This document shows positions 27,910 to 42,125 of a stretch of 46,247 nucleotides of DNA, one piece after another. The stretch lies in NCBI GenBank assembly GCA_013298985.1, contig JAAFJS010000013.1:1-46247 (forward strand). Reading direction: 5' to 3'. Every line of letters begins with the position of its first letter. The first letter of the stretch is position 1. The stretch comes from Cytophagales bacterium. GTDB lineage: Bacteria; Bacteroidota; Bacteroidia; Cytophagales; Thermoflexibacteraceae. The position numbers and the translations under genes are program-made. The notes beneath the pieces are model-generated. The model saw only the letters and a list, made by a program, of their open reading frames with translations. It made no database searches and was not told the DNA's origin.

Positions 27910-28016
27910 CATTTTAATACTTAAATTGTTTAATTGCCAGTCATTGCCAGATAAGAAAGCAACTGTTAATCAATACATTACAGTTGCTTTTCTTTTTTTA
28001 CTAACACTCACAAACA
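27888..28016 (+). repeat. attL: tRNA-Arg 3' end and downstream terminator (129-bp direct repeat, left copy)
   Basis: The stretch from the T loop of tRNA-Arg through a terminator is repeated at 45701-45825. The core is GAATCCAATCCA (27893-27904). It is followed by two ATTGCCAG direct repeats (27933-27940 and 27943-27950) with 10 bp period. A stem-loop GCAACTGT (27959-27966) with ACAGTTGC (27980-27987) and the T run 27988-27999 form a rho-independent terminator for the tRNA transcript. The left copy keeps the tRNA intact. Confidence 0.85.
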
Positions 28017-28024
28017 CATCTCTC

Positions 28025-28071
28025 AGGTTACTTAGTAGGTTACTTTTTTTGCCAAAAAATCCAAGTAACCT
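28025..28071 (+). promoter_or_regulatory. Candidate integrase arm sites, left cluster, overlapping the int promoter
   Basis: AGGTTACT occurs at 28025-28032 and 28037-28044 and inverted (AGTAACCT) at 28064-28071. The spacings 12 and 27 are exactly those of the cluster at 44749-44795. TTTG at 28048-28051 and TACCATTG at 28073-28080 are a near-consensus promoter for int, so binding here could also autoregulate the integrase. Confidence 0.55.
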
Positions 28072-28093: not shown

Positions 28094-29260
28094 ATGAACA
28101 ACTTTTACACCTATTTTTGGCTTGCCAAATCCAAAAAAAACAAAGTGGGTTTATGCCCTATTTATTGCCGCGTAGTGATAGACGGCAAAAGAACTGAACT
28201 CTGCACCAAAATCTACATCAGCCCTTGCGAATGGTGTAATAAGACGCATAGGGTGCTTTCAAAAAAAAATGAATACCTCAATGAGAAGCTACATCTTTTC
28301 CGTATAGAAGTGGAAAAGGATTTGATACTGATGACCAAAAAGTTTGGTAAGGTTTCAGTGCAGACATTTAAAATACCCAAACCGTCCGTTCCTACGCTGA
28401 TACAAGCCTATAAACAATATTTAGATGATAAGCTAAAAGAATCACTCACGATTGAAACTATCAAGTCGCTTAAAAACTCTTATACTGTTTTTGAAAAATT
28501 CATTAGCAAACATCATCTCAAAAACATCTTGGTTACTGAGGTGGATATAAAAGTGATAGAGAGTTTTCATCAATACTTGAAACATCAGCCAATTAATAAT
28601 CCAAATGCGGTCAATAAAATAGGTTACTCTCCTGATGTGATTAGAAAGGTATTGAGGAAATTGGTAGTAGTGATGGATTATACGCATCATAGAGGGTTTA
28701 TAGAAACCAATCCATTGGCACATTATAAACCCAATATCAAGTCGTCCAAGAAGGCAATTGTTTTTTTAGAGCAGGAAGAACTGGACAGGCTCAGAAGTCA
28801 TCATTTTGCGACGGAGAGGTTACAGCAAGTAGCAGACTTGTTTGTATTTCAGTGTTATACAGGCTTTGCCTACAATGAGCTAATGAGCTTTGAGAGTTGC
28901 CACGATACCAAGACATGGAACGGCATGGTGTTTATCCAAAAGAAGCGCGGGAAAACAGGGACGGAGTGTCTATTGCCTTTTTTTGATAAGGCACGCGACA
29001 TCTACGAAAAGTACAGTCAGAAGCTACCCCTTTTGACCAATCAAAAATATAATGCGTACCTCAAAGAAGTAGCGGACATCATAGGGATAGATAAGAAACT
29101 GACTACACACGTGGCACGAAAAACGGCGGCAATGCGGTTTTATGAGCAAGGAGCAAGTGAACAAATGGTTGCTAAGATGTTAGGACATAGTACGGCAAAG
29201 ACTACATTTACTTTTTATGCGACAGTGAGAGAGCAGACATTGAGTAGGGTATTGGTTTGA
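28094..29260 (+). CDS. int: Tyrosine recombinase (integrase), IntDOT-like
   Basis: The 388-residue protein from the ATG at 28094 starts MNNFYTYFWLAKSKKNKVG, a Bacteroidota arm-binding domain (about 1-75). A core-binding domain (about 95-200) and a catalytic domain (about 210-388) follow. The catalytic domain has KKRGKTGTECLLPF, THVARKTAAMRF (His-x2-Arg), MLGHSTAKTT and the nucleophile Tyr in FTFYATVREQ. The first catalytic Arg is missing: the site reads CYTGFAYNEL where RxxEL is common, a feature shared with IntDOT-type recombinases. A longer frame upstream would encode 56 residues overlapping the attachment site, so I use the internal start. Confidence 0.92.
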   Translation: MNNFYTYFWLAKSKKNKVGLCPIYCRVVIDGKRTELCTKIYISPCEWCNKTHRVLSKKNEYLNEKLHLFRIEVEKDLILMTKKFGKVSVQTFKIPKPSVPTLIQAYKQYLDDKLKESLTIETIKSLKNSYTVFEKFISKHHLKNILVTEVDIKVIESFHQYLKHQPINNPNAVNKIGYSPDVIRKVLRKLVVVMDYTHHRGFIETNPLAHYKPNIKSSKKAIVFLEQEELDRLRSHHFATERLQQVADLFVFQCYTGFAYNELMSFESCHDTKTWNGMVFIQKKRGKTGTECLLPFFDKARDIYEKYSQKLPLLTNQKYNAYLKEVADIIGIDKKLTTHVARKTAAMRFYEQGASEQMVAKMLGHSTAKTTFTFYATVREQTLSRVLV

Positions 29261-29390
29261 TTGTGAGGTGTTATTTCATGGTGTAATTATTTTAATGCCT
29301 CCTAAATATCTGCTTTTCCTTTTTATTTTAGCCTCAAATGCGTCCATATCAGTATTATATTAATAGACAAATGTAGGATATATACATGAT

Positions 29391-29432
29391 AAATACGTGA
29401 TAATTCAGTGAAAAATACGTGATAATTCAGTG
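29391..29432. repeat. Tandem 20-bp direct repeat
   Basis: AAATACGTGATAATTCAGTG occurs twice without mismatch, 22 bp apart. A third partial TACATGATAA precedes at about 29383. Iteron-like, and located in the non-coding region of the element. Confidence 0.8.
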
Positions 29433-29474
29433 ATGTGTATGCTATTTATCGCTAAAAGAAAAAGAATGGAGTAT

Positions 29475-29502
29475 GTCAAAAGCTGTGGACAAAGGGCGAG
29501 CA
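29475..29502 (+). repeat. 28-bp repeat, copy 1 (inverted copy at 41843-41870)
   Basis: GTCAAAAGCTGTGGACAAAG followed by GGCGAGCA. It matches the complement of 41843-41870 at 25 of 28 positions. The second copy is itself part of an inverted repeat (GTCAAAAGCT at 41825-41834 and its complement at 41861-41870). Confidence 0.7.
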
Positions 29503-29550
29503 GAAAGATACCAAAAAGCGTGCAGTCCCTGACCTTACTGGCTTAAATTT

Positions 29551-29602
29551 GGTATCAAAAAAGGACTGAGCAGCTTGTTGCCCGAATTAAATTTGGTATC
29601 AA
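29551..29602. repeat. Paired GGTATCAA element, copy 1
   Basis: GGTATCAA at 29551-29558 and 29595-29602 are 44 bp apart. The second one overlaps the stop codon of the leftward gene 29599-30309. Two other pairs with 44- and 43-bp spacing occur at 38713-38764 and 41466-41516. Confidence 0.7.
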
Positions 29603-30309
29603 TTCAGGAAATTCTTAAAAAAGATAGAGATATACTCGATGTTAGTATTTTTTCTTTCCCTTAGTTCTTGCAGTTCTTTGGGCAGTTTATGCGATTGGTT
29701 GAGTAACATGAAGCGAATATTGGTCAGGTGATTGCTTAACTGCTTATGATAGTGCTTATAGTTCAAATCTACGCCCTGCATGGAGAACATCATTTTCTGA
29801 TAAATGTACTCCAAACATAGTACGCCTATTAACTCTCCGTAATAATCATAGATGGCGAAGTAAAGTCCTTGCTTTCCGTCCCTGTCTAATAAGCCGCGAT
29901 AAGAATTATAAAAAGGTGATATTCCTTCCTTGTGGTCATCTACATCAAGGGCAACTACTTGTTGTTTTTTGAGTATCGATAAAATGTCATCAAAAATAAT
30001 CGCCTTATAGTCTTTTAGTCTATCTATTGGCTCAATTTGGTAATTTGACAAAGATTCATCAAACACCCTTATTTTGAGTGCAGGCAGTCCACCTTTGTAC
30101 TTTTCGCCGTTTTTGAAAACCAATAAAAAAGCCCTATCGCACCCAGACTTTTTCAAAGACCACTCTAACTCACCTCTGATGATTGTTTTCACCCACTCGT
30201 AGAAAGACATGGGAAAATACTTATGAATACCATTGGGGAAAATATACTGGTAGATGACAAATAAGCACATGATACAGAGTAATACATCTTTGAATAAGGT
30301 GAATGTCAT
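29599..30309 (-). CDS. Membrane protein with GAF-like domain, last gene of the virion-like operon
   Basis: The 236-residue protein has one N-terminal membrane helix (about 3-22, TLFKDVLLCIMCLFVIYQYI), then a mixed alpha/beta domain: DRAFLLVFKNGEKYKGGLPA, IIFDDILSILKKQQVVAL and GLYFAIYDYYGELIGVLCLE. The order of strands and the closing strand resemble a GAF/PAS-like sensory fold, but I cannot prove it. It is 22 bp downstream of the previous gene on the same strand. Function is unknown. Confidence 0.65.
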   Translation of the reverse strand: MTFTLFKDVLLCIMCLFVIYQYIFPNGIHKYFPMSFYEWVKTIIRGELEWSLKKSGCDRAFLLVFKNGEKYKGGLPALKIRVFDESLSNYQIEPIDRLKDYKAIIFDDILSILKKQQVVALDVDDHKEGISPFYNSYRGLLDRDGKQGLYFAIYDYYGELIGVLCLEYIYQKMMFSMQGVDLNYKHYHKQLSNHLTNIRFMLLNQSHKLPKELQELRERKNTNIEYISIFFKNFLN

Positions 30310-30331
30310 GGGTTTTTTTGATTTCTTTAGT

Positions 30332-30778
30332 TTAGTAGTCTATTCCCATTGCGGTAATGTCGTAATTGAGGTTAAAAAACGAACCTCCTGTAACTTCAAA
30401 ATTGACACTGATGGTATCTCCAGTTTCTATGGAAATAAACCTATTATTTACACCATCGCGCTGTAGCCACGCAAATTCAGTTCTGTTTAGAATTTCTGCC
30501 AAAATAGGCGTTGTTCCATTGAGTGGTCCCAGTGAAGCAGAGCCAATCATATAATTTATGCCTGCCCTTCTCAGATACACATTGGCAGTAACCGTACTGG
30601 TAACACCCGCACTGGCAGAAAGCATACACATAATTTTATCCAACCTGCTACCATCTATAGCGGCGGGGAAGATATGAATTAACGGTGTTGGATTCACAAA
30701 GTTTACATTACTGCTTGTCCCTTTATGTACCGCATTATTAGCCCTTAATGGAAAGAACAACTTATCATTTTTTGGCAT
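30332..30778 (-). CDS. Beta-rich hypothetical protein, candidate spike or receptor-binding protein
   Basis: The 148-residue protein is almost all predicted beta strands (TVTANVYLRRAGINYMIGSA, DTISVNFEVTGGSFFNLNYD) with few Lys or Glu. It looks like a jelly-roll or similar fold common in viral surface proteins. It follows the repeat-containing gene by 11 bp. No family is recognised. That it is a receptor-binding tip is inference from position and composition. Confidence 0.6.
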   Translation of the reverse strand: MPKNDKLFFPLRANNAVHKGTSSNVNFVNPTPLIHIFPAAIDGSRLDKIMCMLSASAGVTSTVTANVYLRRAGINYMIGSASLGPLNGTTPILAEILNRTEFAWLQRDGVNNRFISIETGDTISVNFEVTGGSFFNLNYDITAMGIDY

Positions 30779-30789
30779 ACCATTTTTTT

Positions 30790-31128
30790 TTATAAAGTTT
30801 GAAATCTTGTTTGCACAAACAATTTGAGTAGCTCATTGCTTGGGGGTGGAGGGGGCAAGTTACTCAGGTCATTATAATTGCCTGATGATGCCACTGCTGA
30901 CAAAGTAGGACGACTACTCAAATCTCCATAGTTTCCTGATGTAGCCACTGCCACAAAAGCAGGACGACCACTCAAATCCGCATAGTTCCCTGATGTAGCC
31001 ACTGCTGACAAAGTAGGACGACCACTCAAATCCGAATAGTTTCCTGATGTAGCCACTGCCACAAAAGCAGGTTTGTTTTGAACTGCATTCCATGTAATAA
31101 TTTGTCTTTTTCTCAGTGTAATACCCAT
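30790..31128 (-). CDS. Repeat protein with tail-fibre-like GNYxDLSxRP motifs
   Basis: The 112-residue protein begins MGITLRKRQIITWNAVQNK and has four 18-residue repeats (about 20-91), with cores SGNYSDLSGRP, SGNYADLSGRP, SGNYGDLSSRP and SGNYNDLSNLP. The GNY/DYxDLxxxP pattern is well known in the N-terminal parts of phage tail fibres. A Pro-rich stretch (PPPPP) and a short C-terminal helix follow. The repeats alternate PAFVAV and PTLSAV, giving a 36-residue super-repeat. It lies 4 bp from the upstream gene. Confidence 0.75.
   Translation of the reverse strand: MGITLRKRQIITWNAVQNKPAFVAVATSGNYSDLSGRPTLSAVATSGNYADLSGRPAFVAVATSGNYGDLSSRPTLSAVASSGNYNDLSNLPPPPPSNELLKLFVQTRFQTL
30856..31071 (-). repeat. 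Tandem 54-bp coding repeats (108-bp super-repeat)
   Basis: Four in-frame units of 54 bp encode the 18-residue fibre motifs. Units 1 and 3, and 2 and 4, are more alike, so a 108-bp duplication is likely. Such repeats can change copy number and thus fibre length. Confidence 0.75.
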
Positions 31129-31132
31129 AGCT

Positions 31133-31423
31133 TTAACTATTGTAAGGATTGATAAATTTTCTAATAACCAACAAGTTAGCCGTTCCCACTACCTCTTCAA
31201 AGATAATTTGAAGATTGGTTTGAATGACCACTTCTGGATTTTCCTCGTCCAAGGTAAAATCATCACCAGTGGCAAGCGTCAAACCTGTTTGCCCAAAGCC
31301 AATCTTGACAGGAATTGTTCCTTCATTTCTGAAATAAACAGAATTACTATCAGGAAGCATTTGTGTACTTTCTGTGATGACTTCAGCAAGGTGTGTAGAG
31401 GCATACTTTGGCATTATTTCCAA
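31133..31423 (-). CDS. Small beta-rich hypothetical protein of the virion operon
   Basis: The protein has 96 residues from the first ATG, or 93 if it starts at MPKYASTHLAEVITES. It contains VYFRNEGTIPVKIGFGQTGL and VVIQTNLQIIFEEVVGT, a short beta-sandwich-like pattern. No family is recognised. It is placed between the lysin and the fibre-like gene; it could be a minor capsid or collar protein, which is a guess. Confidence 0.6.
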   Translation of the reverse strand: MEIMPKYASTHLAEVITESTQMLPDSNSVYFRNEGTIPVKIGFGQTGLTLATGDDFTLDEENPEVVIQTNLQIIFEEVVGTANLLVIRKFINPYNS

Positions 31424-31481
31424 TATTTATAAGTAAAAAAGGCTATGACAGCAATCAAAACTATACTGTTATCTGCGTTTG

Positions 31482-32033
31482 TTAGAGGTCGTTTTTTTTT
31501 AAAACCCCTTCTAACTCACGCATAAGCGAGAGCAATACGCGCTCATAGTTTGGGGCAGTCGCATACCCAGCTTTGGCGATTCTACTGGCAAAAGCATAAG
31601 CATCAGTAGTTTGAAAAGCAGACGCATAACGTGAATTACGTCTTAGAAAATTCCCATAGTCTAAAAATGAATCCAATGGACTATCATAAGCACGAAACCA
31701 GTCCATCACACGAAAGGCAGTACACTTTCCACAAGGATTGCCTTGCTGATGAGGAGCTACCGTTTTGAGTATCTTCCAAGTATCACCCATGCTATTGTTG
31801 GCAGACAACTTACAACATTCCCAAGTAGATAAGTATTGCTTGCTTCCTTTCCATGATTTGGTTGCTTTGATACCAAACATCATGTTTTGAGGCTTGGCAG
31901 TACCGAATCCACTTTCTAAAGCGGATTGAGCCAATGCAACCAAAGCAGGTACACCCGATTGTTTTTCTGCCGCTACTGCGTGAGTATGGTATTTTTGGAG
32001 ATAAGATAAAATATTTAACTCTCTACGCGTCAT
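31482..32033 (-). CDS. Endo-beta-N-acetylglucosaminidase (GH73-like) lysin
   Basis: The 183-residue protein cuts the glycan strands of peptidoglycan. The catalytic Glu is E40 in LVALAQSALESGFGTAKPQN, followed by NMMFGIKATKSWKG and the Tyr-rich RVMDWFRAYDSPLDSFLDYG, as in FlgJ/AcmA-type glucosaminidases. No signal peptide is seen, so export may depend on membrane-active partners. Its start overlaps the stop of the upstream gene by four bases (ATGA), indicating translational coupling with the two-helix membrane protein, a holin- or injection-like arrangement. Confidence 0.9.
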   Translation of the reverse strand: MTRRELNILSYLQKYHTHAVAAEKQSGVPALVALAQSALESGFGTAKPQNMMFGIKATKSWKGSKQYLSTWECCKLSANNSMGDTWKILKTVAPHQQGNPCGKCTAFRVMDWFRAYDSPLDSFLDYGNFLRRNSRYASAFQTTDAYAFASRIAKAGYATAPNYERVLLSLMRELEGVLKKNDL

Positions 32034-32872
32034 TTTTTGAAGGTTTTAAATGCTTGAAAAGCAATGAGTAAGCCAATGCCTATGACGATATTACTACTTA
32101 CTTTGCCCAAATCCATGCCTGATTGATTGTTTGCCACCAAGGTTTCAATCTCTCGTTTGATTTCAGGGTTTTCAGAAGCCATTTTTCGCAAGCTCTCTGC
32201 ATTTTTGAAGTCAATTTCAGACTGGCGATTCATAGAAATCAAACGTGCTAAAAGGGTAGCTATCACTCCTGAAGCAAGCCCTACCAATGCCCATTTGACA
32301 GCAGGTGCAAGGATAATGAATGGGGCAGAAATGCGAAAAAGCCCTGCAAACTTATTGGCAATCAGTTTCCAGCCCTCGCGCACCTGATGCGCTACGTAGC
32401 TCACTCCTCGCAGGTTCTGCAAAAAGTTTTGTCGCTGATTGAAAGAATTGGAAATCTGTGCTAATTGTGCTTGCATGGGTTGCACATTCACCCCCCTTTT
32501 AGCTACTCTATCCAAACTTTCTGCCACAGAAAGCAACTGATAGTAGGTATCATTGTCCCTATTGGCAATCTGGTTGAGCAGTTTTTCTACATCGGGTGTG
32601 CTTGCTGTACTATTGGTAGTGGAGGAAGGTTTGGAAGTCGTTATCACACTATTTCTCACCCAGCCTCCTTTGCTCAACTTGACATAAACCTCATTTTTGC
32701 CATTGACGCGTATAGGATTAGATACTGTCCCAGTGGCAATACCTACGATGCTACCCCTACGCACTGTCCTGAGAAGATTGCCTTCTATGACAGGGCGCGG
32801 GGTGCGATACACATTGACCACTTCAGCAGTGGCATAGAGTGTTTTTGTACGTAAATTGGCTAAAATAGGCAT
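32030..32872 (-). CDS. Membrane protein with N-terminal SH3-like domain
   Basis: The 280-residue protein has a probable bacterial SH3-like domain (about 8-78, EVVNVYRTPRPVIEGNLL, GSIVGIATGTVSNPIRV, VYVKLSKGGWVRNS), a Ser/Thr linker, a helical region (about 90-165) and two membrane helices (about 175-215 and 255-275). SH3b domains bind cell-wall peptides. It is translationally coupled (ATGA overlap) to the glucosaminidase. The TTTTCTTTTAGCGATA box lies just before its ATG. A role in delivering the lysin through the envelope is inferred. Confidence 0.65.
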   Translation of the reverse strand: MPILANLRTKTLYATAEVVNVYRTPRPVIEGNLLRTVRRGSIVGIATGTVSNPIRVNGKNEVYVKLSKGGWVRNSVITTSKPSSTTNSTASTPDVEKLLNQIANRDNDTYYQLLSVAESLDRVAKRGVNVQPMQAQLAQISNSFNQRQNFLQNLRGVSYVAHQVREGWKLIANKFAGLFRISAPFIILAPAVKWALVGLASGVIATLLARLISMNRQSEIDFKNAESLRKMASENPEIKREIETLVANNQSGMDLGKVSSNIVIGIGLLIAFQAFKTFKK

Positions 32873-32905
32873 ATTATCGCTAAAAGAAAAGAGATTGAAA
32901 AATGA

Positions 32906-33286
32906 TTACCTATTCAAAGAACGTCTATTAGAAGTTCCACCTACACTTTTTCTGGTGTGCTTTTTAGTGCCACTCACTGCTTTGGGCGTGGCTTTTTTGG
33001 AATACGCCTTGGTGATTGCCTTGCGAACCTCTCCGTTTGCTTTTTTTGCTTTGTCGCGCTTCTTGACGGCTTCGCTGAGGTCTTTCCTTTTTACAACGAC
33101 CTGTTTTTCGCAATCGTCCAATAGTTTCTTGGCGCGCTTCACCATGGGGTGATTGTTCACCTTGTTGTTAAAATCCTTCAGGTGATTAGCTCCACTGACA
33201 CGCGCACGTTTTTTCGTGGCTTTTTTTGCCTTGGAAGTGGTTTTTTTCTTTGCCCTGCTTCCAGTCGTTTTTTTCTTTGTTGCCAT
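32906..33286 (-). CDS. Histone H1-like, very basic protein
   Basis: The 126-residue protein is rich in Lys, Arg, Thr and Ala, with ATKKKTTGSRAKKKTTSKAK at the start, a short helical middle (KDFNNKVNNHPMVKRAKKLL), and a basic tail (AYSKKATPKAV). It resembles bacterial histone H1-like DNA-condensing proteins. In a virion operon it may neutralise or bind the packaged genome. Low-complexity composition makes detailed homology uncertain. Confidence 0.7.
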   Translation of the reverse strand: MATKKKTTGSRAKKKTTSKAKKATKKRARVSGANHLKDFNNKVNNHPMVKRAKKLLDDCEKQVVVKRKDLSEAVKKRDKAKKANGEVRKAITKAYSKKATPKAVSGTKKHTRKSVGGTSNRRSLNR

Positions 33287-33294
33287 ACAAATTA

Positions 33295-34023
33295 TTATAA
33301 AAATTGTTGCATGATTAATTTGAAATTCTCTGGATTGTTTTTTGCAAATTTTGCCAGCCCTTCCATGCCTTTGACGAAATCCTCTCCTGACGCTTTTTGA
33401 ATGTCCGTAAGTGCCTTTTCCAAACGTTTTTCCTCTACATTAGGCGTATTGCCACTACTATTCGCATTGCCTATCTCAGTGGGTTTGGGGGCATTTCCTG
33501 CCAAGTTTTGTTGCATAATTCCGCCTACAAAGTCTATGATTTTATCAAACTGATTATTGGGTTCTCGCTTTTGTTGTAACTTGAATAACTCCAATTTGTA
33601 ATTGCTCTCCGTTTCAATTTGCTTTGCCCTCAAATCTGCCATTTGTGTATGCAATCCCAAAATTGTATTAAAATTGCTCTCATAGATATTGCCAATACTG
33701 CCAATCCCTGCCATAGAGGTAGTAACCGCTTGCGTGCCATTTGCCTCCAACTTGTTGAAGGGAAGCGACTGCTCAGAGTTTCTGCCATTGACGGTTTTTC
33801 TGCCGTAAATCATGTACCTGCCTGCTGGATACATTTGCATCAGTCCCCTAAAGTGTGTGATGGAATCATCCACATTGAGCGCGCTCGTACTTGACTTGCC
33901 AGTGAGGTCATCTACGTCTATTTCCTGACTTTTGAAGGCAACTTCTCTACCTCCAAAATAGCATACACGCCAGTAAGGAAGGTTGTTTTGTTTGAGCCAA
34001 TTCTCAACGTTCTCAATCGTCAT
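33295..34023 (-). CDS. Hypothetical protein of the virion-like operon
   Basis: The 242-residue protein has an N-terminal alpha/beta region (MTIENVENWLKQNNLPYWRV, then CYFGGREVAFKS), a Gly/Ser-rich loop region (TSMAGIGSIGNIYESN), a coiled helix (ETESNYKLELFKLQQKREPN) and a disordered stretch with Asn/Ser/Pro. No family is recognised. Position next to the basic protein suggests a virion-core or scaffold role, but nothing in the sequence shows this. Confidence 0.6.
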   Translation of the reverse strand: MTIENVENWLKQNNLPYWRVCYFGGREVAFKSQEIDVDDLTGKSSTSALNVDDSITHFRGLMQMYPAGRYMIYGRKTVNGRNSEQSLPFNKLEANGTQAVTTSMAGIGSIGNIYESNFNTILGLHTQMADLRAKQIETESNYKLELFKLQQKREPNNQFDKIIDFVGGIMQQNLAGNAPKPTEIGNANSSGNTPNVEEKRLEKALTDIQKASGEDFVKGMEGLAKFAKNNPENFKLIMQQFL

Positions 34024-34035
34024 GTTGTCAGGGGG

Positions 34036-34437
34036 TTAGTCTTCGTATATTGCCAAAAAACAAATCGCACTACTGGCAGGGATTGCATTTGCTACGGTTG
34101 CAACAAATTCTAAAAAAGACTTATCCCATGCAATTTTCTTACCTTGCAAAGTGAGCATACTTTCAGCCCTCACGCCGCCTGCTACTACGCCCTCATACAA
34201 AATAGATGATGGTAGTGTTTCGTAGATAATAGCGTTATCATCACCTGTTAATGTAACATAAATTGAAGCAGGCTGATGAATCACCAAGCCAGTGGGTGAG
34301 TGCGTCATGCCCATAGGTAACAAGAGGTGCAATAGTTTTTTGCCCTGCAAAATCGCTTGTTGTCCAAAAGTATAACGTGCTGTACCAGTTCGCAAAGGAA
34401 TGGTAATCAGTGCCGATTTTGGTGTTTTTTTCAGCAT
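34036..34437 (-). CDS. Beta-rich hypothetical protein, candidate minor capsid protein
   Basis: The 133-residue protein has a pattern of short strands (SALITIPLRTGTARYTFGQQ, GLVIHQPASIYVTLTGDDNA, and AICFLAIYED at the end). It is one base from the upstream gene stop. No match to a known family is evident. The beta-strand density and location in the operon are typical of a jelly-roll or minor coat protein. Confidence 0.58.
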   Translation of the reverse strand: MLKKTPKSALITIPLRTGTARYTFGQQAILQGKKLLHLLLPMGMTHSPTGLVIHQPASIYVTLTGDDNAIIYETLPSSILYEGVVAGGVRAESMLTLQGKKIAWDKSFLEFVATVANAIPASSAICFLAIYED

Positions 34438-34438
34438 A

Positions 34439-34732
34439 TCAAATCCCTGCGTTTAAACGGTTAAAAAGCGAAACATTGGAGTAATGCGCGATAAATAAGG
34501 CAAAGGCTTCTGAGGCAGGAAGTGCTAAAATTGCCTGTACCACACTCTGGGCAGTATCAGGTAATTTTACATCTGCTAAATGAGCCTCTAAATTATTATT
34601 TTGCAACTCCAAAGCATCTATTTGGTCTTGTAAGCTGTCTTGCTGTGCCTTTACCTCAGCGAGGTCTGATACCAAAGCAACATAAGCATTATGTATTTCC
34701 TGCTTCGTGTTGCCCATTGTGATTTCATTCAT
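34439..34732 (-). CDS. Small coiled-coil protein
   Basis: The 97-residue protein starts MNEITMGNTKQEIHNAYVAL (a start at the second Met is possible). A coiled coil at about 25-55 (QQDSLQDQIDALELQNNNLE) is followed by a hydrophobic helix (VQAILALPASEAFALFIAHY). It could be a scaffolding or assembly protein beside the candidate capsid gene. No family is recognised. Confidence 0.6.
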   Translation of the reverse strand: MNEITMGNTKQEIHNAYVALVSDLAEVKAQQDSLQDQIDALELQNNNLEAHLADVKLPDTAQSVVQAILALPASEAFALFIAHYSNVSLFNRLNAGI

Positions 34733-34784
34733 AAGAATTACAGTTTAAAAATCCTTATTTTATTACACTATCGGAAAAATTCCT

Positions 34785-35498
34785 TTAAGAAGGATTTGTT
34801 TGCTGTAACGCAGGCGTATTTCTTCTGCGTACCATTGCTTTCTCGCGGTTTGATTCTTCTGTCGCGCCGCCCTCAATGAGATAGCCGCCCGCGTAGAATA
34901 CCAACTTATTGTCCGTACCCGCCGTAACTGATTCAATTTGAACACCTGTTATTAATGGGATTTCCAGTGTAAAAGTGTTTTTTCTTGCACCCGACAAACG
35001 CAACATAGGTTCTAACTCCATAAATGGGTACTCATACTCAAATTGTGAGTTTGAATTGACCGCTGATTGAAAAGTTTGTGGCACTTGTCTAAACCTCAAC
35101 GTATCTAAGGCACTATACACCACATTGTTTTGAATTTGAACGCGCATAATGGCGTTATAAATCAACTCTAAGTGAGCAGGTGTAAAGCCCGCGACGGCAG
35201 GGAAGTTAGTCAAGTTTGGAAAGGTCTGTAAAACACCGGTTCCTAATTGATTGGCTGGCTCACGAAGCAAAAAAATACCAAATTCGCTTGCACAGAAAAA
35301 GTCTTGACGATTGAGCCTGCGCTCAGTCAGCTTCTGCGTGTTGTCATCGTTGAAATCAACGGTGTAAGTGTTTTGCTGATTTCGTAAAACCACCTCTTGT
35401 TTCAAAAATGACTTGGTTGGATTTTGGTTGGGAAATTGTTGCCTAAGCAGGTTAAGCAACGCCCTATCCCTTTGGGTTTTCATACTTCTTGCTGACAT
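34785..35498 (-). CDS. Candidate major capsid protein
   Basis: The 237-residue protein begins MSARSMKTQRDRALLNLLRQ, then KSFLKQEVVLRNQQNTYTVD, RRLNRQDFFCASEFGIFLLR, and later MLRLSGARKNTFTLEIPLIT and DNKLVFYAGGYLIEGG. It is strand-rich, with no signal peptide or membrane helix, and sits between the membrane proteins and the assembly-like genes. I think it is the best capsid candidate, from composition and place, and I see no motif that settles it. Double jelly-roll capsids usually exceed 300 residues, so a single jelly-roll or another fold is likely. Confidence 0.5.
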   Translation of the reverse strand: MSARSMKTQRDRALLNLLRQQFPNQNPTKSFLKQEVVLRNQQNTYTVDFNDDNTQKLTERRLNRQDFFCASEFGIFLLREPANQLGTGVLQTFPNLTNFPAVAGFTPAHLELIYNAIMRVQIQNNVVYSALDTLRFRQVPQTFQSAVNSNSQFEYEYPFMELEPMLRLSGARKNTFTLEIPLITGVQIESVTAGTDNKLVFYAGGYLIEGGATEESNREKAMVRRRNTPALQQTNPS

Positions 35499-35561
35499 AA
35501 AATAAATTTAGAAAATAGTGTGAAAAAAAATAAGACTTAAAACATGGAAACCGCGATAATG

Positions 35562-36020
35562 TTATACTGTAAAATTATCTACGCACCCTACCTCATTTTC
35601 AGGCTCATCACCTGCTACAAAGTCCTCTGCATCACCTACCTGTCCGATAAGTTCTGCCTCATCTTCAGAGGAGGCAATCGCCTCATCATCTGCGCCGTCC
35701 AAGTATCCTTGAACATAAGCATCATCTTCAGCGATTCCTACTTCACCCACACCCGCAATGCGAGGGAATGAATTAGGGGCTACTGCCTGACCTATCATTA
35801 AGCCACCTATAGTCATCATGCCCTGCCCTATTTCGGACATTACTCCTTTTTTGGAGGCAAGAAAACCGCCTAAAATACAAACTACCCCTGCCTTGATGAA
35901 TGGATTAGCTCGCTCACCTCCCAAAGTGGCAGGGATAAACTTCGCTATTTGCACCGCCCCAAAGCCTCCGACCGCTTGCATAGCTACTTTGGTAGCTATT
36001 TGTTTTAAATTAATCCTCAT
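35562..36020 (-). CDS. Glycine-rich membrane protein with acidic tail
   Basis: The 152-residue protein has three hydrophobic Gly-rich stretches (about 15-35, 43-60 and 64-82; KAGVVCILGGFLASKKGVMS and GMMTIGGLMIGQAVAPNS), then an acidic tail of about 55 residues rich in Asp, Glu and Ala. Proteins of this type are common in virions with internal membranes. No family is recognised. A TTTTCTTTTAGCGATA box lies about 40 bp before the start. Confidence 0.6.
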   Translation of the reverse strand: MRINLKQIATKVAMQAVGGFGAVQIAKFIPATLGGERANPFIKAGVVCILGGFLASKKGVMSEIGQGMMTIGGLMIGQAVAPNSFPRIAGVGEVGIAEDDAYVQGYLDGADDEAIASSEDEAELIGQVGDAEDFVAGDEPENEVGCVDNFTV

Positions 36021-36079
36021 AAATTGATAAATAGTTAAAAATGAGAAACTTAGTTAAATCTATCGCTAAAAGAAAAAAA

Positions 36080-36406
36080 CTAAATCACATACAAAAAGCC
36101 TATCTCGTCTTCATATTCTCCACCGCTTTCCTCTACTGGTGGAGGCGTTTGTACTGGTGCAATTACCTCTTGTAATGGTACAGTAGTGGCAGGTGCATTT
36201 TGTACTGGTGGAGGGTTATTCACCACTGTTACAGGCGTTTGCTTGCTTCCTTGTTGCATCTGCTGACGTAGCTGAACATATCTTTCCATCGCATTAGACA
36301 TAGGAGTAACTGGCACTGATGGAGTGCTGTTTTGGGTGCGGCGTGCTGACCTTTTACTGGCACGTGCTACCCTCCTTTCCTGTCTGCGCTGTCTTCTTTT
36401 GCTCAT
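36080..36406 (-). CDS. Basic, proline-rich small protein
   Basis: The 108-residue protein has an Arg-rich N-terminus (MSKRRQRRQERRVARASKRS), a Gln/Met-rich middle and a Pro/Val-rich tail ending GGEYEDEIGFLYVI. The Arg cluster can bind nucleic acid. No membrane helix is visible. It starts one base after the stop of the larger basic membrane protein upstream, and the two have similar Arg-rich N-terminal parts, so they could share a role in DNA packing. Confidence 0.6.
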   Translation of the reverse strand: MSKRRQRRQERRVARASKRSARRTQNSTPSVPVTPMSNAMERYVQLRQQMQQGSKQTPVTVVNNPPPVQNAPATTVPLQEVIAPVQTPPPVEESGGEYEDEIGFLYVI

Positions 36407-36407
36407 G

Positions 36408-37301
36408 CTACTTGCCTTTTTTGGAAGTCAGAATAATCAATAAAATCACCCCCCCGATTGCCATGGTCGTTCCATTCAACTGTAACCCGCCGCCTGAAGC
36501 AGGTGGAGGATTGGTAGTGCGTTGTTGCCTCATTTGTGCCAAACGCTGTGGAACACGCGTACGCATCTGATTTTGATTTGCCACTGGTCTTTGTGGCAAA
36601 GGTTGCTGTCGTGGCATGGTCGTAGGACGATTTAACTGCCTTTGGGGTGTCTGTCTTTGGGTAGTAGGACGACTTCTTGCTCTACCAATCCCATATAAAT
36701 CACCCCAAATGCCTTCTACCGTACTTTCCATGCTCTCTTGTTGCCAAGCCTCGTCAGACCAACCATCATCTACAGGCATTTCCTCCTCTACAGGTACTGT
36801 ATTGGTTTCTACCTGCACTACAATAGGAGCTTGATTAAATGGTTGTGTTTGCATCACAAGCGGTGCTTGTGGTTCAAACATATCATAACCCTCCTGTAGT
36901 GGGTCCTCCATGAAAGGTTCTTGTTGCAAAGGTTGCTGCCTCATTGTCGCCAAGGAGTTTCTCACCTGACCGCCTAACGTGCGTATAGTTTCTTGTCGTC
37001 TGATGTTGCGATTACTACGCCTCACATCATTGTTCTGACGCGTAACCTCCTTTCTTTCGGCAGTGGCATTTCTGACATCATTTCGCAAGGTAGCGCGTGC
37101 CGTTCTTCGTTCCATTTTTTGCGAAAAACTTGTCCTGCGCTTATCTGCACGTCTGGTAGCTTTCGCATTGGTACGGTTTGACCTCCGCTCTGCACGCCTA
37201 CCTTGCCTGCGCGCAATGCGCCTACCCGCTCCAACTGCGCCGATGTCTTCTAATTCTGCAATGACATCATCTGTACCTGATAACCTAACTATTTTGCTCA
37301 T
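36408..37301 (-). CDS. Arg-rich protein with C-terminal membrane anchor
   Basis: The 297-residue protein has a strongly basic part (about 20-110; IARRQGRRAERRSNRTNAKA, NNDVRRSNRNIRRQETI), a Gln/Pro/Arg-rich disordered middle and one C-terminal membrane helix (about 272-294, LNGTTMAIGGVILLIILTSK). It looks like a tail-anchored membrane protein whose basic cytoplasmic side could bind the genome. No family is recognised. It is 9 bp from the upstream transglutaminase-like gene. Confidence 0.62.
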   Translation of the reverse strand: MSKIVRLSGTDDVIAELEDIGAVGAGRRIARRQGRRAERRSNRTNAKATRRADKRRTSFSQKMERRTARATLRNDVRNATAERKEVTRQNNDVRRSNRNIRRQETIRTLGGQVRNSLATMRQQPLQQEPFMEDPLQEGYDMFEPQAPLVMQTQPFNQAPIVVQVETNTVPVEEEMPVDDGWSDEAWQQESMESTVEGIWGDLYGIGRARSRPTTQRQTPQRQLNRPTTMPRQQPLPQRPVANQNQMRTRVPQRLAQMRQQRTTNPPPASGGGLQLNGTTMAIGGVILLIILTSKKGK

Positions 37302-37310
37302 ACATGATAC

Positions 37311-38306
37311 TTAATTGGGTACAACATCTACTTTGTACGTGTGTGGCTTTTCACTGTTAAAGAAAGGCAAACACGCATCTATTAAAATTTCCCTACCTTG
37401 CTCATTTTTAGCAACTACGTACACGTGTGTAGGGGTTTGATTGGCTTTGAAGGAAACAAAACGAAAGGCAAAGGGAATCCCTGAATTTCTCAAAATACTG
37501 GCAGTAAGGATTGAATACCCTTTGCAGTCTGAAAATCCATCGTAAATCACTCGGTCAGGAGTTTTGGAGAACTGTACGCCTATTGGGTCCAACTGATAGC
37601 GTATGTTTTTACGAAGAAAATCGTAAATGTTTTTACACGTTTCAGTCCTGTTTTGCCCTCTGAATTGCCCTGCCACTGCTTGTGTTTGATGCCAAGACAA
37701 CTTAAAGGTATTGGCAATCTCTACCATGATGTCAGCAGTATCTCCGTCATGGTGGATAGTTTCTGCAATGCCTTTGGGTTTGGGTAATACAGCAACAATT
37801 TGGTTGAAATTCACCTCGCCAATCCTTGCATTGCGTTGCTGTGGAATGTACTCAGAGAGTTGAACTGCTACATTAATAGGAAAATTTGCGCCTCTTGAAA
37901 CCAAGCCGCCTTTGACCTCTACCACTTGACTTCTCAGGGCGTTCACCGTTTCTTTGATGCCTCGCCTGATGATGCTCATGAGATTACTACCTAATACACG
38001 TGCCAATGCACCCAATCCAATGTTGATAGGGATTTCTATAATCGTAACATCTACTGGCGCAAGGTTAAAGGATTCGTTGCGCTGAATTGTACCTATCAGG
38101 CTTCCTTTCATGTAGAGGTTGAGCAATATTTTATCTACGCTTTGGGCAACTGAGGAGGGATTAGCAATGCGAATTACCGCGACTAATTCCATGCCTTGCA
38201 AATTGATGCGATGCACTCGTAAAGCGGTCAGGGCGTAATCTAAACGAGATACGCTACTGCCTTGACGCAATAACAGAAAAGCCAATATGCCGATTATCCA
38301 TTCCAT
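37311..38306 (-). CDS. Membrane-anchored protein with LEA2-like and transglutaminase-like domains
   Basis: The 331-residue protein has an N-terminal membrane helix (about 2-14), a LEA-2-like beta domain (about 22-105; LVAVIRIANPSSVAQSVDKI) and a transglutaminase-like domain (about 195-312). The catalytic triad is C261 in GFSDCKGYS, H294 in TPTHVYVVA and D310 in EILIDAC. Bacterial members of this superfamily include peptidases and crosslinking enzymes. First gene of the leftward operon, so it could process or stabilise virion proteins. The 9-bp gap to the next gene indicates cotranscription. Confidence 0.78.
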   Translation of the reverse strand: MEWIIGILAFLLLRQGSSVSRLDYALTALRVHRINLQGMELVAVIRIANPSSVAQSVDKILLNLYMKGSLIGTIQRNESFNLAPVDVTIIEIPINIGLGALARVLGSNLMSIIRRGIKETVNALRSQVVEVKGGLVSRGANFPINVAVQLSEYIPQQRNARIGEVNFNQIVAVLPKPKGIAETIHHDGDTADIMVEIANTFKLSWHQTQAVAGQFRGQNRTETCKNIYDFLRKNIRYQLDPIGVQFSKTPDRVIYDGFSDCKGYSILTASILRNSGIPFAFRFVSFKANQTPTHVYVVAKNEQGREILIDACLPFFNSEKPHTYKVDVVPN

Positions 38307-38341
38307 GAGGCGAACATAATGGAAGCGGAAAAACTGCTTTT

Positions 38342-38400
38342 CCGTTATTTTCCGTTAGTTTCAGATAATTGCCGTTATTTTCCGTTATTTTCAGCTAATT
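38342..38400. repeat. Iteron-like tandem 29-bp repeats in the divergent control region
   Basis: Two 29-bp copies (38342-38370 and 38372-38400), differing at two positions, each contain two CCGTTATTTT-type decamers (38342, 38352, 38372, 38382; one reads CCGTTAGTTT) at 10-bp period, followed by CAGnTAATT. They lie between the virion operon start and the small rightward HTH gene, where operator sites or a replication origin would be expected. Confidence 0.75.
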
Positions 38401-38430
38401 TTGGTAATTTTGATAAAAATTATTTTTTCT

Positions 38431-38622
38431 ATGGATATAAATGTGTTGCTGACTGCCAATAGTTTAGGAAAGTCGCAAATAGCCATCATTTTAGGCGTGA
38501 GTATGCCCACACTTAGAAAGGAATTAAGGAAAGCGGGTTTTTGTTTGGAGAAAAGGAGAATCATTTATGCGGTGGACTTGGTGAGAATCCACCGTCATTT
38601 TGTAGGACAAAAGGAAAGTTAA
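38431..38622 (+). CDS. Small helix-turn-helix regulator
   Basis: The 63-residue protein from ATG 38431 (MDINVLLTANSLGKSQIAII) has a single helix-turn-helix, with the recognition part LGVSMPTLRKELRKAGFCLE. An upstream TTG would add 10 residues. It is transcribed divergently from the virion operon and faces the iteron-like repeats, so it is the likely regulator of that operon. The rest of the region after it is short. Confidence 0.6.
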   Translation: MDINVLLTANSLGKSQIAIILGVSMPTLRKELRKAGFCLEKRRIIYAVDLVRIHRHFVGQKES

Positions 38623-38712
38623 AACATGAATTGAACGGTGCGCCGTAGCGACCTACTGCTCTCTCTTTGCGCCTCCGTTCCGTTCCTCATCACGCCCATA
38701 CTTTCCTTTTTT

Positions 38713-38764
38713 GGTATCAAAAAGCCCTGCTGCGGATTATAATATGAGCTTCATTTGGTATCAA
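38713..38764. repeat. Paired GGTATCAA element, copy 2
   Basis: GGTATCAA at 38713-38720 and 38757-38764, 44 bp apart, between the convergent HTH and Toprim genes. The right one is inside the last codons of the Toprim gene. Confidence 0.7.
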
Positions 38765-39650
38765 TCAAATACTCGTTTAAGTCTTTGTGGCGTGGATACA
38801 TGGATTTGAAAAAATCATAAAATTTTGCTTGAGGATAGATTTTTTTATAAAAATCAGCAGTATCGTTACCTGCTTCATCATTGTCTATACATAATCCAAT
38901 ACATGAGTATTTGCTTACAATATCTAATGAAGCCTCTTTGTTGCACACACCATTTAATATCAAAAAGTCAAATAAAGGAGTTACATTTCTTTTAACCGTC
39001 AGAAAACTTAAAAAATCCATAAATCCTTCAAAAATGACTATAAAAGCCCGCATATCCTCCTTTGAAATATTACTAATAAAAGTAACTCCCTTAATATTAC
39101 ACCCCTTGAAATACTTGTTTCGCAACTCGTACCCGCCTAAATCATTTTTAAATGCTAAAGCAAAATATTGTTTGTCATTAAATTGTATGGTGTAGTATGC
39201 CTCTTGTAAGTAGATTTTAGCAAGTTCCAAGTTTATTTTACGCGACTCAAGGTACTGTATCAATGCTTTGTTTTCCAATGCCTTGACCTTGTTTATAATA
39301 ATACGTTTTTTATTTACATAACCACAAGGCATTTCTATTTGAGCTATATCTTCCCTTTCTTCCGTTGAAAGACCTAAATGATGGTGGAAATGTAACAATA
39401 TTTCCATTGCTCTACCAAAATCGCACTGGTAGAGATTTTGCACCAAACGAATGATGCTACCTCTATCACTTCCAAAGTCATTGAACACGTTTTTTTCAGG
39501 GTGAACATAACAACTGGGTGTGTTCTCCTCTCTGATGCGATACAATAACTGACTGCCTACAGTCTTGACTGGCATGATGCCCACACTTGCCAAATAATCT
39601 ACAATGGAGATTTGACACACCTTGTGAATGGTTATTTTGTCGTAGTACAT
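38751..39650 (-). CDS. Toprim primase-like replication protein
   Basis: The 299-residue protein has an N-terminal CHC2-like module without most of the zinc cysteines (LYRIREENTPSCYVHPEKN, then VFNDFGSDRGSIIRLVQNL) and a Toprim domain with E208 in IFEGFMDFLSF and D256/D258 in CIDNDEAGNDTADFY. This is the arrangement of the primases carried by Bacteroidota mobile elements. It overlaps the Rep gene upstream by 19 bp, so both are translated from one mRNA and likely act together at the replication origin. Confidence 0.85.
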   Translation of the reverse strand: MYYDKITIHKVCQISIVDYLASVGIMPVKTVGSQLLYRIREENTPSCYVHPEKNVFNDFGSDRGSIIRLVQNLYQCDFGRAMEILLHFHHHLGLSTEEREDIAQIEMPCGYVNKKRIIINKVKALENKALIQYLESRKINLELAKIYLQEAYYTIQFNDKQYFALAFKNDLGGYELRNKYFKGCNIKGVTFISNISKEDMRAFIVIFEGFMDFLSFLTVKRNVTPLFDFLILNGVCNKEASLDIVSKYSCIGLCIDNDEAGNDTADFYKKIYPQAKFYDFFKSMYPRHKDLNEYLIDTK

Positions 39651-41197
39651 AATTTTTCTTCTTTTTGGTATTTTTGAAAGGAATCAAGGGTAAATAATTC
39701 AAAAAAATTGCCCGCGCTCACTAACTTCATTTGCTGAGGTACGGATAAGATGCTATTAATTTCATAGAGGTACTTTTCTCTTTTGAGGTCTTTTAACATT
39801 TTGGGGGCAAATGCCAAGTCTTTTTTAGTTTTTGAGTGGTAGTATAAGGTTTCTGGGCGCGTGCAATAAAGTAAAGTGTAGTCTGTATCCTCTACTTTTT
39901 CAAAGGTTTCAGGGCTAATGCTGTATGCCTCTGTATTTTCTATTTTGCCCATGCTCACTTCCTCACCTTGAGGCTGTGGAATTTCGGTTTCTTCTGTCCC
40001 TTCTGCCTCGCTGGGCTGTGGGGCATTGTCTTTTTGGTGATTGAGATTCAAGGACTTATCATTGTAGCAAAACCCAAAACGACCATATAAATTTAAGTTT
40101 TGTGTATTGGCTAATATGGTCTTTATCAAATCAAGGTCGTATTGTGGTATTTTACCCACTGTCTTGGTCTTATATTGCTCTCCTATTTGCTCTTTTTGCG
40201 TATAATCATCACTTTTGAAGTGGTATTTGAGGGTTTCTAACATTCCTTTTTCCCAATCTTGGAGAGAAGAATGTTCAGTAATATATACTTTCTGATAGCG
40301 GCTACTTTGTTGCACTTCTTGTAAGTTTTCTGCGTACTGGTGCATCACTTTTTCTTTGTAATAGAGTGATTCACAATGGATAATGAAACCGCCTGTAAGC
40401 CTTTGCCACTCATTTACGATTGCCTCACGTGCCTCATTGATGCTGTATTCTTTGGGCATAAAGCACAAAATATGCAAGTGTGAGTGAATACCATTGCCGT
40501 TGGGTGATTGCTTGTTTTCGCAATTATACTCACCGCCTGAGAGGTATTTTTTACACTTGGTTTTGGTGCGTAGGTACTTGAACTTTTCTATTAAATCATT
40601 GGCATAGAAGGTCTTACCATTCCAAATGCCCTCCTTATGTGGCACTGTCAAAACAATGTGTAAGGGAATATAATCGCCTTTTAACTTTTCAAAATTAGTT
40701 TGTAAATAGCTTTTCCAAATCTTTACTAATCGCTTGTATTTGAGGTAATTAGCTACGGCGCACAGTTTGTGCCTGCTGTAAATAGCGTTCCTAATTTGGG
40801 TTTTTCCTGTCTTTTTGAAGTGTTTGAGGAAAACACCCCTTTTCCTCAATTCAAAATAATATTTTATAAGTAGCTTATTATCAAGGAATCGCTCATTTAG
40901 AATCTCACCAGTTTCAAAGTCTATGCACGCTTTTTCTACTTCTTTGTACTTTTTGTAATGGGTAATATCTAAGTCATTGATTTTCAAATAGTCTGCTATC
41001 TGATTAGATAATTGGATTTGCTGTTTGAATTTATTAGCGATTTTATACGCATGACGATTGTTTGAAGACACTAAACCTTTGTGTTTCTCTAACACTAAGG
41101 CAGCGTTTTCACGGTTATTGCGTATATTATCAAGTAAGGTATCAGGACTGCCAAAATGCTTGCCCTGCTCGCGCCAATCTATCTCAAATGCTACCAT
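39632..41197 (-). CDS. Rolling-circle replication initiator, HUH endonuclease of the Rep_1 type
   Basis: The 521-residue protein has the three Rep motifs in order: motif I HIVLTVPHKEG (about 180-190), the HUH motif at H240-L-H242 in GIHSHLHILCF, and motif III with the nicking Tyr Y325 and Lys K328 in ETLKYHFKSDD, which closely resembles the KYxxKxSD of pC194-family Rep proteins. The enzyme nicks one strand at the origin and starts strand displacement. No helicase motif is seen, so host helicase is needed. The C-terminus is acidic and Gln/Pro-rich (about 390-430). Overlaps the 73-aa gene upstream by 7 bp and the Toprim gene by 19 bp. Confidence 0.88.
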   Translation of the reverse strand: MVAFEIDWREQGKHFGSPDTLLDNIRNNRENAALVLEKHKGLVSSNNRHAYKIANKFKQQIQLSNQIADYLKINDLDITHYKKYKEVEKACIDFETGEILNERFLDNKLLIKYYFELRKRGVFLKHFKKTGKTQIRNAIYSRHKLCAVANYLKYKRLVKIWKSYLQTNFEKLKGDYIPLHIVLTVPHKEGIWNGKTFYANDLIEKFKYLRTKTKCKKYLSGGEYNCENKQSPNGNGIHSHLHILCFMPKEYSINEAREAIVNEWQRLTGGFIIHCESLYYKEKVMHQYAENLQEVQQSSRYQKVYITEHSSLQDWEKGMLETLKYHFKSDDYTQKEQIGEQYKTKTVGKIPQYDLDLIKTILANTQNLNLYGRFGFCYNDKSLNLNHQKDNAPQPSEAEGTEETEIPQPQGEEVSMGKIENTEAYSISPETFEKVEDTDYTLLYCTRPETLYYHSKTKKDLAFAPKMLKDLKREKYLYEINSILSVPQQMKLVSAGNFFELFTLDSFQKYQKEEKLCTTTK

Positions 41198-41412
41198 GCA
41201 ACTTGTGGGGTTTCAAGTGGTGAAGAAAAAAGTAAAGTAATTTGTGCCTCTGTATGGGCGGGTAACTCGTGCCACTCACCTACCCTGCTTTCAAAGTCTG
41301 CGATTGCCTGCTCAGCTGAAATCGTGTATCTAAAAGTATCTGGATAGGTACTTTTAGAACTTTCTGCGACTACTTCGTGTTCTGCTTCTGTGATATATGC
41401 CAAATCTTGCAT
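41191..41412 (-). CDS. Small acidic protein, first gene of the rep operon
   Basis: The 73-residue protein (MQDLAYITEAEHEVVAESSK at the start) overlaps the Rep start by 7 bp and is the first gene of the rep operon after the terminator at 41431-41462. It has no recognised domain. Control or assistance of Rep is an inference from gene order. Confidence 0.6.
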   Translation of the reverse strand: MQDLAYITEAEHEVVAESSKSTYPDTFRYTISAEQAIADFESRVGEWHELPAHTEAQITLLFSSPLETPQVAW

Positions 41413-41430
41413 TTTTTTATGATGGTTTTA

Positions 41431-41462
41431 AAAACTCCTTACTTGTGATAAGGAGTTTTTTT
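41431..41462. terminator. Rho-independent terminator before the rep operon
   Basis: AAAACTCCTTA (41431-41441) pairs with TAAGGAGTTTT (41449-41459), with a T run following. It separates the RHH gene from the rep operon. It could act in both directions because short T-rich tracts flank both sides. Confidence 0.7.
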
Positions 41463-41465
41463 GTT

Positions 41466-41516
41466 TTGATACTAAATTAAGTTAAACCGGTTTTCCCCGA
41501 ACCTTTTTTTGATACC
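41466..41516. repeat. Paired GGTATCAA element, copy 3 (opposite orientation)
   Basis: TTGATACT at 41466-41473 and TTGATACC at 41509-41516, 43 bp apart. On the minus strand the order and flanks match copy 1 (GGTATCAAAAAAAGG near one end, TTAATTTAGTATCAA near the other). Confidence 0.65.
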
Positions 41517-41521
41517 AATTC

Positions 41522-41782
41522 TCAAAAGGTAGTGAGCATTTTTAGATTTTCTGTCGTCTGAAAATGTGCTTTTAGGTTGCTTTTGATAGCTTCTAACTCC
41601 TTTTGCGTTTTTGCCAATTCTAATTTGTAGCTTCCTAATTGCCTTTCCTGACTGCGAAACTGCTGTATGATGTACCGTACCGCGTCCGATTGATTACTGT
41701 CTATCTGCCCCATGATTTTGTCCAGTTCTGATGCGTCGGCTTCCTCTAAACGCAAGGGAAATTCTTTGACGTATTTTTTCAT
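41522..41782 (-). CDS. Ribbon-helix-helix regulator with coiled-coil tail
   Basis: The 86-residue protein has an N-terminal ribbon-helix-helix-like part (FPLRLEEADASELDKIMGQI, then SNQSDAVRYIIQQF) and a coiled coil. Such proteins are typical plasmid-type copy-control or operon repressors. It lies upstream of the rep operon but is separated by a terminator. Its targets are probably the rep promoter or its own. Confidence 0.65.
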   Translation of the reverse strand: MKKYVKEFPLRLEEADASELDKIMGQIDSNQSDAVRYIIQQFRSQERQLGSYKLELAKTQKELEAIKSNLKAHFQTTENLKMLTTF

Positions 41783-41842
41783 GTCGACTCTATTTTTTGT
41801 TTTTGATTTTAAATTATTTTTTTTGTCAAAAGCTCTGTACTT

Positions 41843-41870
41843 TGCTCGCCTTTTGTCAATAGCTTTTGAC
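41843..41870 (-). repeat. 28-bp repeat, copy 2, with inverted partner
   Basis: The complement matches 29475-29502 at 25 of 28 positions. The right end is one arm of an inverted repeat: GTCAAAAGCT at 41825-41834 and its complement at 41861-41870. A direct repeat TTTTGTCAAnAGCT is also present at 41821 and 41851. It lies in the 41783-41918 non-coding gap between the RHH and XRE genes. Confidence 0.7.
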
Positions 41871-41918
41871 TTAAAGTCCCTGACCGAGTTAGTACATAGC
41901 GATTGACAAACACCATTT

Positions 41919-42125
41919 TCAGGACAACACGTCTATTTTCATTCTTCGGAAAACTTCTGCAAATTTCTTTACGGTTTTCCAACTCATGTGCCGTTCTCCT
42001 TTGAGCATTTTTGATAGCAAAGAAGGGCTAACACCTGCTTGTATGCACAAATTTTGGCAGTTAAACAGTCTATGATTTTCTTTCAAATACGCCATTACCT
42101 TTTCGGTGATTTCCCAGTTGGTCAT
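41919..42125 (-). CDS. XRE-family helix-turn-helix protein (Cro-like)
   Basis: The 68-residue protein contains a Cro/C1-type helix-turn-helix (CIQAGVSPSLLSKMLKGERH, then MSWKTVKKFAEVFRRM). It is small enough to be a Cro-like partner to the CI-like regulator at 45189-45659, although they are 3 kb apart. The gene starts at ATG 42125 and is followed by a 136-bp gap holding the 28-bp repeat. Confidence 0.72.
   Translation of the reverse strand: MTNWEITEKVMAYLKENHRLFNCQNLCIQAGVSPSLLSKMLKGERHMSWKTVKKFAEVFRRMKIDVLS

Follow-up and report, generated by a model that had tools for sequence, protein, structure and literature searches.

What is the role of a 28-bp sequence that is present twice, in opposite orientations and 12.4 kb apart, in an integrated genetic element of a Cytophagales bacterium (Thermoflexibacteraceae)? 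The window analysed, that is, the whole stretch of 46,247 nucleotides from contig JAAFJS010000013.1 (assembly GCA_013298985.1), carries in a tRNA-Arg gene a provirus-like element of ~18 kb (17.9 kb; 27.9-45.8 kb) that encodes a replication protein (Rep) of the HUH type. The two copies are a real repeat built on a 16-base near-palindrome. The reading that we favour from the sequence, with confidence falling a little short of even, is that they represent a duplicated binding site of an element-encoded DNA-binding protein in a replication-control region.

The left copy (29475-29502, + strand) and the complement of the right copy (41843-41870, - strand) were identical at 25 of 28 bases, and 27 of 31 bases were identical when the pair was extended to 29472-29502 and the complement of 41843-41873. 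This match, first reported in a first-pass annotation of the window, held up on recount, in a genome-wide pattern scan and against shuffled sequence. In the 6.06-Mb genome just two places, the left and right copies themselves, were found within three mismatches of the 28-mer pattern, while the reversed pattern, used as a control, gave no matches; the exact pattern was also absent from IMG/VR (0 matches). That the repeat was originally spotted by eye in 46 kb speaks for a chance similarity. However, shuffling the intergenic regions of the element produced 25 matches only once in 7304 trials, and the 16-mer described below occurs at four places against 0.03 matches expected, so that chance is hardly credible as an explanation. 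In 60 trials of dinucleotide shuffling of the element, the best inverted 28-mer had 21-24 matches, never 25. Both copies were also verified to be non-coding, the left lying in the intergenic region 29261-29598 and the right in 41783-41918. We rejected a reading in which a 19-residue open reading frame (ORF; MSKAVDKGRAERYQKACSP) starts at the left copy: of the three mismatches between the copies, two fall on first codon positions, and the right copy has no ATG, GTG or TTG in that frame before 41782.

The core unit inside the 28-mer is a 16-bp near-palindrome, GTCAAnnGCTnTnnAC. A search of the window with a relaxed pattern, GTCAANNGCTNTNNAC, gave five matches, where 0.03 would be expected, distributed over four places, at 29475 (+), 41825 (+), 41855 (both strands) and 41892 (-), that is, one on the left and three clustered on the right. 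The left copy holds the 16-mer GTCAAAAGCTGTGGAC and the right copy holds S2 (GTCAAAAGCTATTGAC), which is palindromic at 14 of 16 positions; the two remaining sites, S1 (GTCAAAAGCTCTGTAC; 41825-41840, +) and S3 (GTCAATCGCTATGTAC; 41892-41907, -), are diverged. Occurrence at four places, three of them clustered, is more in keeping with a protein-binding site than with a single nick site. Other 16-mer matches in the genome (contig C59) were rejected as starts of paralogous coding sequences, and the idea of a dispersed repeat was likewise discarded, GATACCAAA-N-TTTGGTATC being found at one place in 19 genomes.

On the right, the three 16-mer sites assemble into an 88-nt imperfect dyad with hairpin potential (41822-41909), of which S1 and S3 are the outer arms, located in the 136-bp intergenic region 41783-41918 upstream of ORF 41522-41782. 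The right copy had been described as lying inside a dyad (GTCAAAAGCT...AGCTTTTGAC), and this was borne out: the arms match exactly (10/10) within the larger hairpin, which folded as DNA with z-scores of -4.0 and -4.6 on the two strands (0/200 shuffles as stable). When both regions were folded as single-stranded DNA, the check proposed in the first-pass annotation, only the right copy proved significantly structured, whereas the left copy did not (DNA z -0.7 and -0.8; RNA z +0.1 and -0.5). The same annotation had noted AGTCCCTGACC near both copies; the nearness was confirmed (29524 and 41875), but both occurrences are on the (+) strand and at unequal distances from the 28-mer copies, and AGTCCCTGACC is therefore a direct repeat and was rejected as a member of the inverted unit.

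Read along the minus strand from the right copy, the order is an 86-residue ribbon-helix-helix (RHH)-like protein with a coiled coil (41522-41782, -), a terminator-like hairpin (AAAAACTCCTTA..TAAGGAGTTTTT; 41430-41460, +), a 73-residue ORF (41191-41412), Rep (39632-41197, -) and a CHC2/Toprim primase-like protein (38751-39650, -; overlapping rep). The hairpin lies between ORF 41522-41782 and ORF 41191-41412 and has, as judged by eye, a T-run past the stem on both strands. Its position after the RHH-like gene, together with the stability of the minus strand of the 88-nt dyad as RNA (z -3.4), would agree with the dyad acting as RNA, namely as a leader hairpin (attenuator) of the RHH-rep transcript of which the left copy is a fragment. 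This is improbable, however, as the left copy corresponds to the centre part only and is unfolded, and the repeated unit is a 16-mer in both orientations rather than a stem.

If the 28-bp pair is instead a duplicated protein-binding site, binding to the three 16-mers in front of the operon that encodes the RHH-like protein, the small ORF, the HUH Rep and the primase would regulate operon expression, the start of replication, or both, and the fourth (left) 16-mer may be an outlying cis-site for the same protein, inside a repeat-rich region that could serve as a second origin or as a packaging or regulatory locus. The RHH-like protein would be the first candidate binder, Rep the second and a 68-residue Cro/C1-type helix-turn-helix (HTH) protein (41919-42125, -; below Pfam cut-offs) the third. 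The near-palindromic core, the location of three of the four sites upstream of the RHH-like gene and Rep, and the specificity of the sites to the element in its genome argue for this proposal. So do the excess of the 16-mer over expectation, the low odds of a 28-bp match by chance, the wider set of sites that left and right have in common, and the similar GATACC/GTATC sites near the RHH-like homologue of a same-genus genome. Several points weigh against it. The left site has no nameable promoter role, because both flanking genes end there, and no convincing promoter was found in 41783-41918 on the right, where a sigma-70 scan listed none, using a model that may not suit the phylum. The RHH assignment of 41522-41782 was made solely by sequence pattern and found no support in Pfam, PDB-sequence (alignment query) or Foldseek searches. 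DNA searches of 18 related genomes, using both intergenic regions as queries, found no homologous intergenic DNA, only weak, mostly A-rich matches; in a genome of the same genus (G001), a locus has an RHH-like homologue, yet no S-type 16-mer was seen in its repeats. Finally, we infer the binding protein and the effect of its binding from the sites, their statistics, their positions and the neighbouring genes, which are observed directly. The structure model of the RHH-like protein comprised helices 17-26 and 29-85, with the N-terminal part unmodelled and the RHH strand absent, and the homologue in the same-genus genome matched it at 44% in alignment.

Could the copies be part of a replication origin? 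The claim that the element encodes an HUH Rep was upheld by a weak match to Pfam Rep_1 (pC194-type; 23.8 bits, below the cut-off of 33.2) and by three invariant His residues with a Glu-xxx-Tyr pair. Alignment-based searches identified 12 relatives of the 521-residue protein at about 30% amino acid identity, one in IMG/VR (L008) and the others (L009-L019) in Siphonobacter, Hymenobacter, Rudanella, Microscilla, Arcicella and other Bacteroidetes genomes. Unlike these, single-sequence searches of genome and viral contigs found nothing; Rep also had no match in phage (50,697 records) or plasmid records, and a PDB sequence search with the Rep alignment found no relative. A further candidate, L005 (G319), was dismissed as a spurious match inside an unrelated gene. 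H238, H240 and H242 (motif HSHLH), E321 and Y325 were invariant in a comparison of 12 sequences (the window Rep and 11 relatives, the truncated L015 being left out), and the Glu-xxx-Tyr pair has a spacing of 4, as in pC194 Glu210/Tyr214 (PMC5703833). The first-pass annotation had looked to close relatives that keep Rep for conservation of the site; none was found, the nearest Rep relatives having about 30% amino acid identity, and the 16-mer (at most two mismatches) was absent from 12 of the 12 distant ones.

Such a pC194-type Rep with conserved catalytic residues, the strong hairpin of the right copy on either strand, and a left region rich in repeats, including a 21-bp direct repeat, would agree with the right dyad being a double-strand origin (dso) that has both Rep-binding sites and a nick hairpin, while the left copy would serve as second origin, leading-strand terminator or lagging-strand origin; dsos consist of Rep-binding repeats and a partial palindrome, often upstream of rep (PMC5703833). 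We nevertheless regard this as rather unlikely, although as deserving more weight than any other alternative to the favoured binding site. The TTGATA word is part of Rep_1/gpA nick sites. It is found in neither copy, and nearby only in GATACC-type sites outside the 28-mers; moreover, the left copy has no significant fold, about 650 bp with two ORFs separate the right site from the start of rep, and a perfect dyad (arms of at least 10 bp) within 1.5 kb upstream of rep was present in 3 of 11 Rep relatives and missing in 8. The earlier suggestion of a nick site, its terminator or a lagging-strand origin thus keeps its HUH Rep and a dyad upstream of the Rep operon, but is weakened by the same absence of TTGATA from the copies, the unfolded left copy and the eight relatives lacking a dyad; for one of the copies to serve as the nick site itself would be conceivable but lacks support. 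TTGATACC words were also considered as Rep nick sites and set aside, because one of them forms the coding end of the primase gene and a similar word in one relative (L012) is coding, and because the GATACC sites of the same-genus genome, whose replication system is different, lack the TTG.

The operator and origin readings overlap and need not exclude each other, since RepU of pUB110, a Rep_1 protein, can coat its dso and the adjacent promoter and silence its own promoter (PMC5703833). In the dso-copG-repB region of pMV158, CopG binds the operator and RepB binds repeats (PMC5717011, PMC5703833). As in this representative of the Rep_2 rolling-circle plasmids, repeated sites are here followed by a gene for a small putative DNA-binding protein and then by a same-strand HUH rep, with a terminator-like hairpin between the small gene and rep. 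The element differs from pMV158 in that its Rep is Rep_1-like and not Rep_2, its small protein has a coiled coil and is at most a putative CopG relative, and its sites, which are near-palindromic, include an inverted copy lying 12.4 kb from the others; moreover, the element is integrated and 18 kb long. The HUH motif with Glu-xxx-Tyr, and possibly a Rep-coated origin upstream of rep, are shared by the element with pC194 and pUB110 (PMC5703833), from which it differs in the length of its Rep (521 residues), the score of this protein below the Pfam Rep_1 cut-off and the absence of the known nick word from the sites.

The left copy lies in a convergent, repeat-dense intergenic region (29261-29598; 338 bp) between the 3' ends of the integrase gene and ORF 29599-30309. 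This region also holds GATACC at 29507 and two occurrences of TTAAATTTGGTATCAA with a spacing of 44 bp (about 29543 and 29587). On the right, two TTGATAC(C/T)-type sites spaced by 43 bp (41466-41520, +) lie 3' of ORF 41522-41782, and TTGGTATCAAAAAA is common to the left region and the complement of 41413-41521, a stretch immediately past the 3' end of the RHH-like gene (0/500 shuffles). Because TTGGTATCAAAAAA is shared in matching inverted orientation, the 28-mer pair is part of a larger repeated set of sites: the 28-mer and two GTATC-type sites occur in the same order and orientation on the left (29475-29602) and in the complement of the right (41870-41466), the RHH-like gene intervening only on the right. 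The shared order and orientation, and the patchiness of the matches beyond the 28-mer, could also mean that the left region arose as an inverted duplicate of the right cassette (16-mer sites, RHH-like gene and GTATC sites), has since decayed with loss of the gene and is now without function. This is unlikely, as the 28-mer is kept at 25/28 while the flanking DNA cannot be aligned, a contrast that suggests that the site is under selection, and the RHH-like coding sequence has left no trace on the left. Among other repeats of this region, a perfect 21-bp direct repeat, AAATACGTGATAATTCAGTGA, was seen at 29391-29433 (starts 29391 and 29413; 22-bp period). A 20-bp repeat, TTATCGCTAAAAGAAAAAGA, is present at 29446, 32874, 36060 and 44064, with several copies near gene ends or starts of the minus-strand operon.

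In the same-genus genome, a related integrase, a homologue of gene 42863-43954 and the RHH-like homologue are found together; GATACC/GTATC sites directly follow the last of these and recur on the far (left) side of the integrases. The 16-mer AAAGATACCAAAAAGC is common to this sequence and the left region of the window (0/500 shuffles). An 89-bp direct repeat (72%; L038 3180-3268 and 8452-8540) flanks two integrases, the 42863-gene homologue and the RHH-like gene there, and contains GATACC/GTATC sites resembling those of the window. This flanking arrangement is one point in favour of recombination sites, in which the inverted 28-bp pair and the inverted GATACC/GGTATC sites of the window, flanking the late operon, primase and Rep, would let a recombinase flip the 12.4-kb segment. 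Yet integration is already explained by attachment (att) sites at tRNA-Arg, and the copies differ at 3 of 28 bases, making this a very improbable role. A broader conjecture, to which we attach little likelihood, is that two opposed replication-control loci (left convergent, right upstream of rep) share one binding site, so that one bound protein would coordinate the start of replication, strand conversion or inversion of the 12-kb segment in a single-jelly-roll provirus; to our knowledge, such a paired layout of opposed control loci has not been described for HUH-Rep elements.

The element itself is bounded by imperfect direct repeats (about 79%) at 27885-28016 and about 45700-45825, comprising the tRNA-Arg 3' end and the following terminator. 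The target is tRNA-Arg(tct) (27836-27910, +), whose 3' end is spanned by attL, attR being at about 45700-45825, and the tyrosine integrase is encoded at 28094-29260 (+; the ORF opens at 27926, and the first ATG, 28094, was used). Repeats of AGGTTACTnAGnAGGTTACT were observed near both element ends (28025-28051, 44749-44775 and 45607-45633), possibly integrase arm sites. A 10-bp unit array (TTTCCGTTAT-like; 38339-38408) has the transglutaminase-like operon on one side and, on the other, a small HTH-like ORF of the plus strand (38401-38622), and ORF 30790-31128, encoding a repetitive protein, has three overlapping copies with a 54-bp period at 30862-31071. In one Rep relative (L018), a tandem 54-nt repeat upstream of rep (2883-2990) resembles a tRNA 3' end and is a possible att site.

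The nature of the element is indicated by a conserved 237-residue protein (34785-35498, -), modelled as a single jelly roll (predicted local distance difference test score 69) and a candidate capsid protein. Compared with solved structures, many of its best matches were viral capsid jelly rolls, all with Z under 8; Foldseek matches in a viral library were weak, and neither the protein nor its homologues had a PHROGs match. Together with a predicted endolysin, the predicted jelly roll suggests a provirus of a tailless virus, as a lead rather than a demonstration. With FLiP and PhiCjT23, tailless phages of Bacteroidetes (PMC9719478), the host phylum is shared, and so would be the non-tailed virion suggested by the jelly-roll protein; unlike in these phages, the capsid candidate is predicted to be a single jelly roll and the element has 18 kb, the sequence comparison consisting solely of the Rep search of phage records. 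Rep, a transglutaminase-like protein and the 237-residue protein are shared with the element by L011, L018 and L019 (237-residue homologues at 15740-16438, 9711-10397 and 16479-17219, respectively), and Rep and the transglutaminase-like protein by L012 and L010. The 237-residue protein and its homologues hint at a family of proviruses in Cytophagales and other Bacteroidetes that has gone unrecognised.

As such, the repeat probably serves as a regulatory or replication site of an ordinary kind, with exact 16-bp targets now defined for binding and nicking tests. Its significance is that it marks where the control region probably lies in a poorly known provirus-like family of Cytophagales and other Bacteroidetes that has an HUH Rep and a predicted single-jelly-roll protein.

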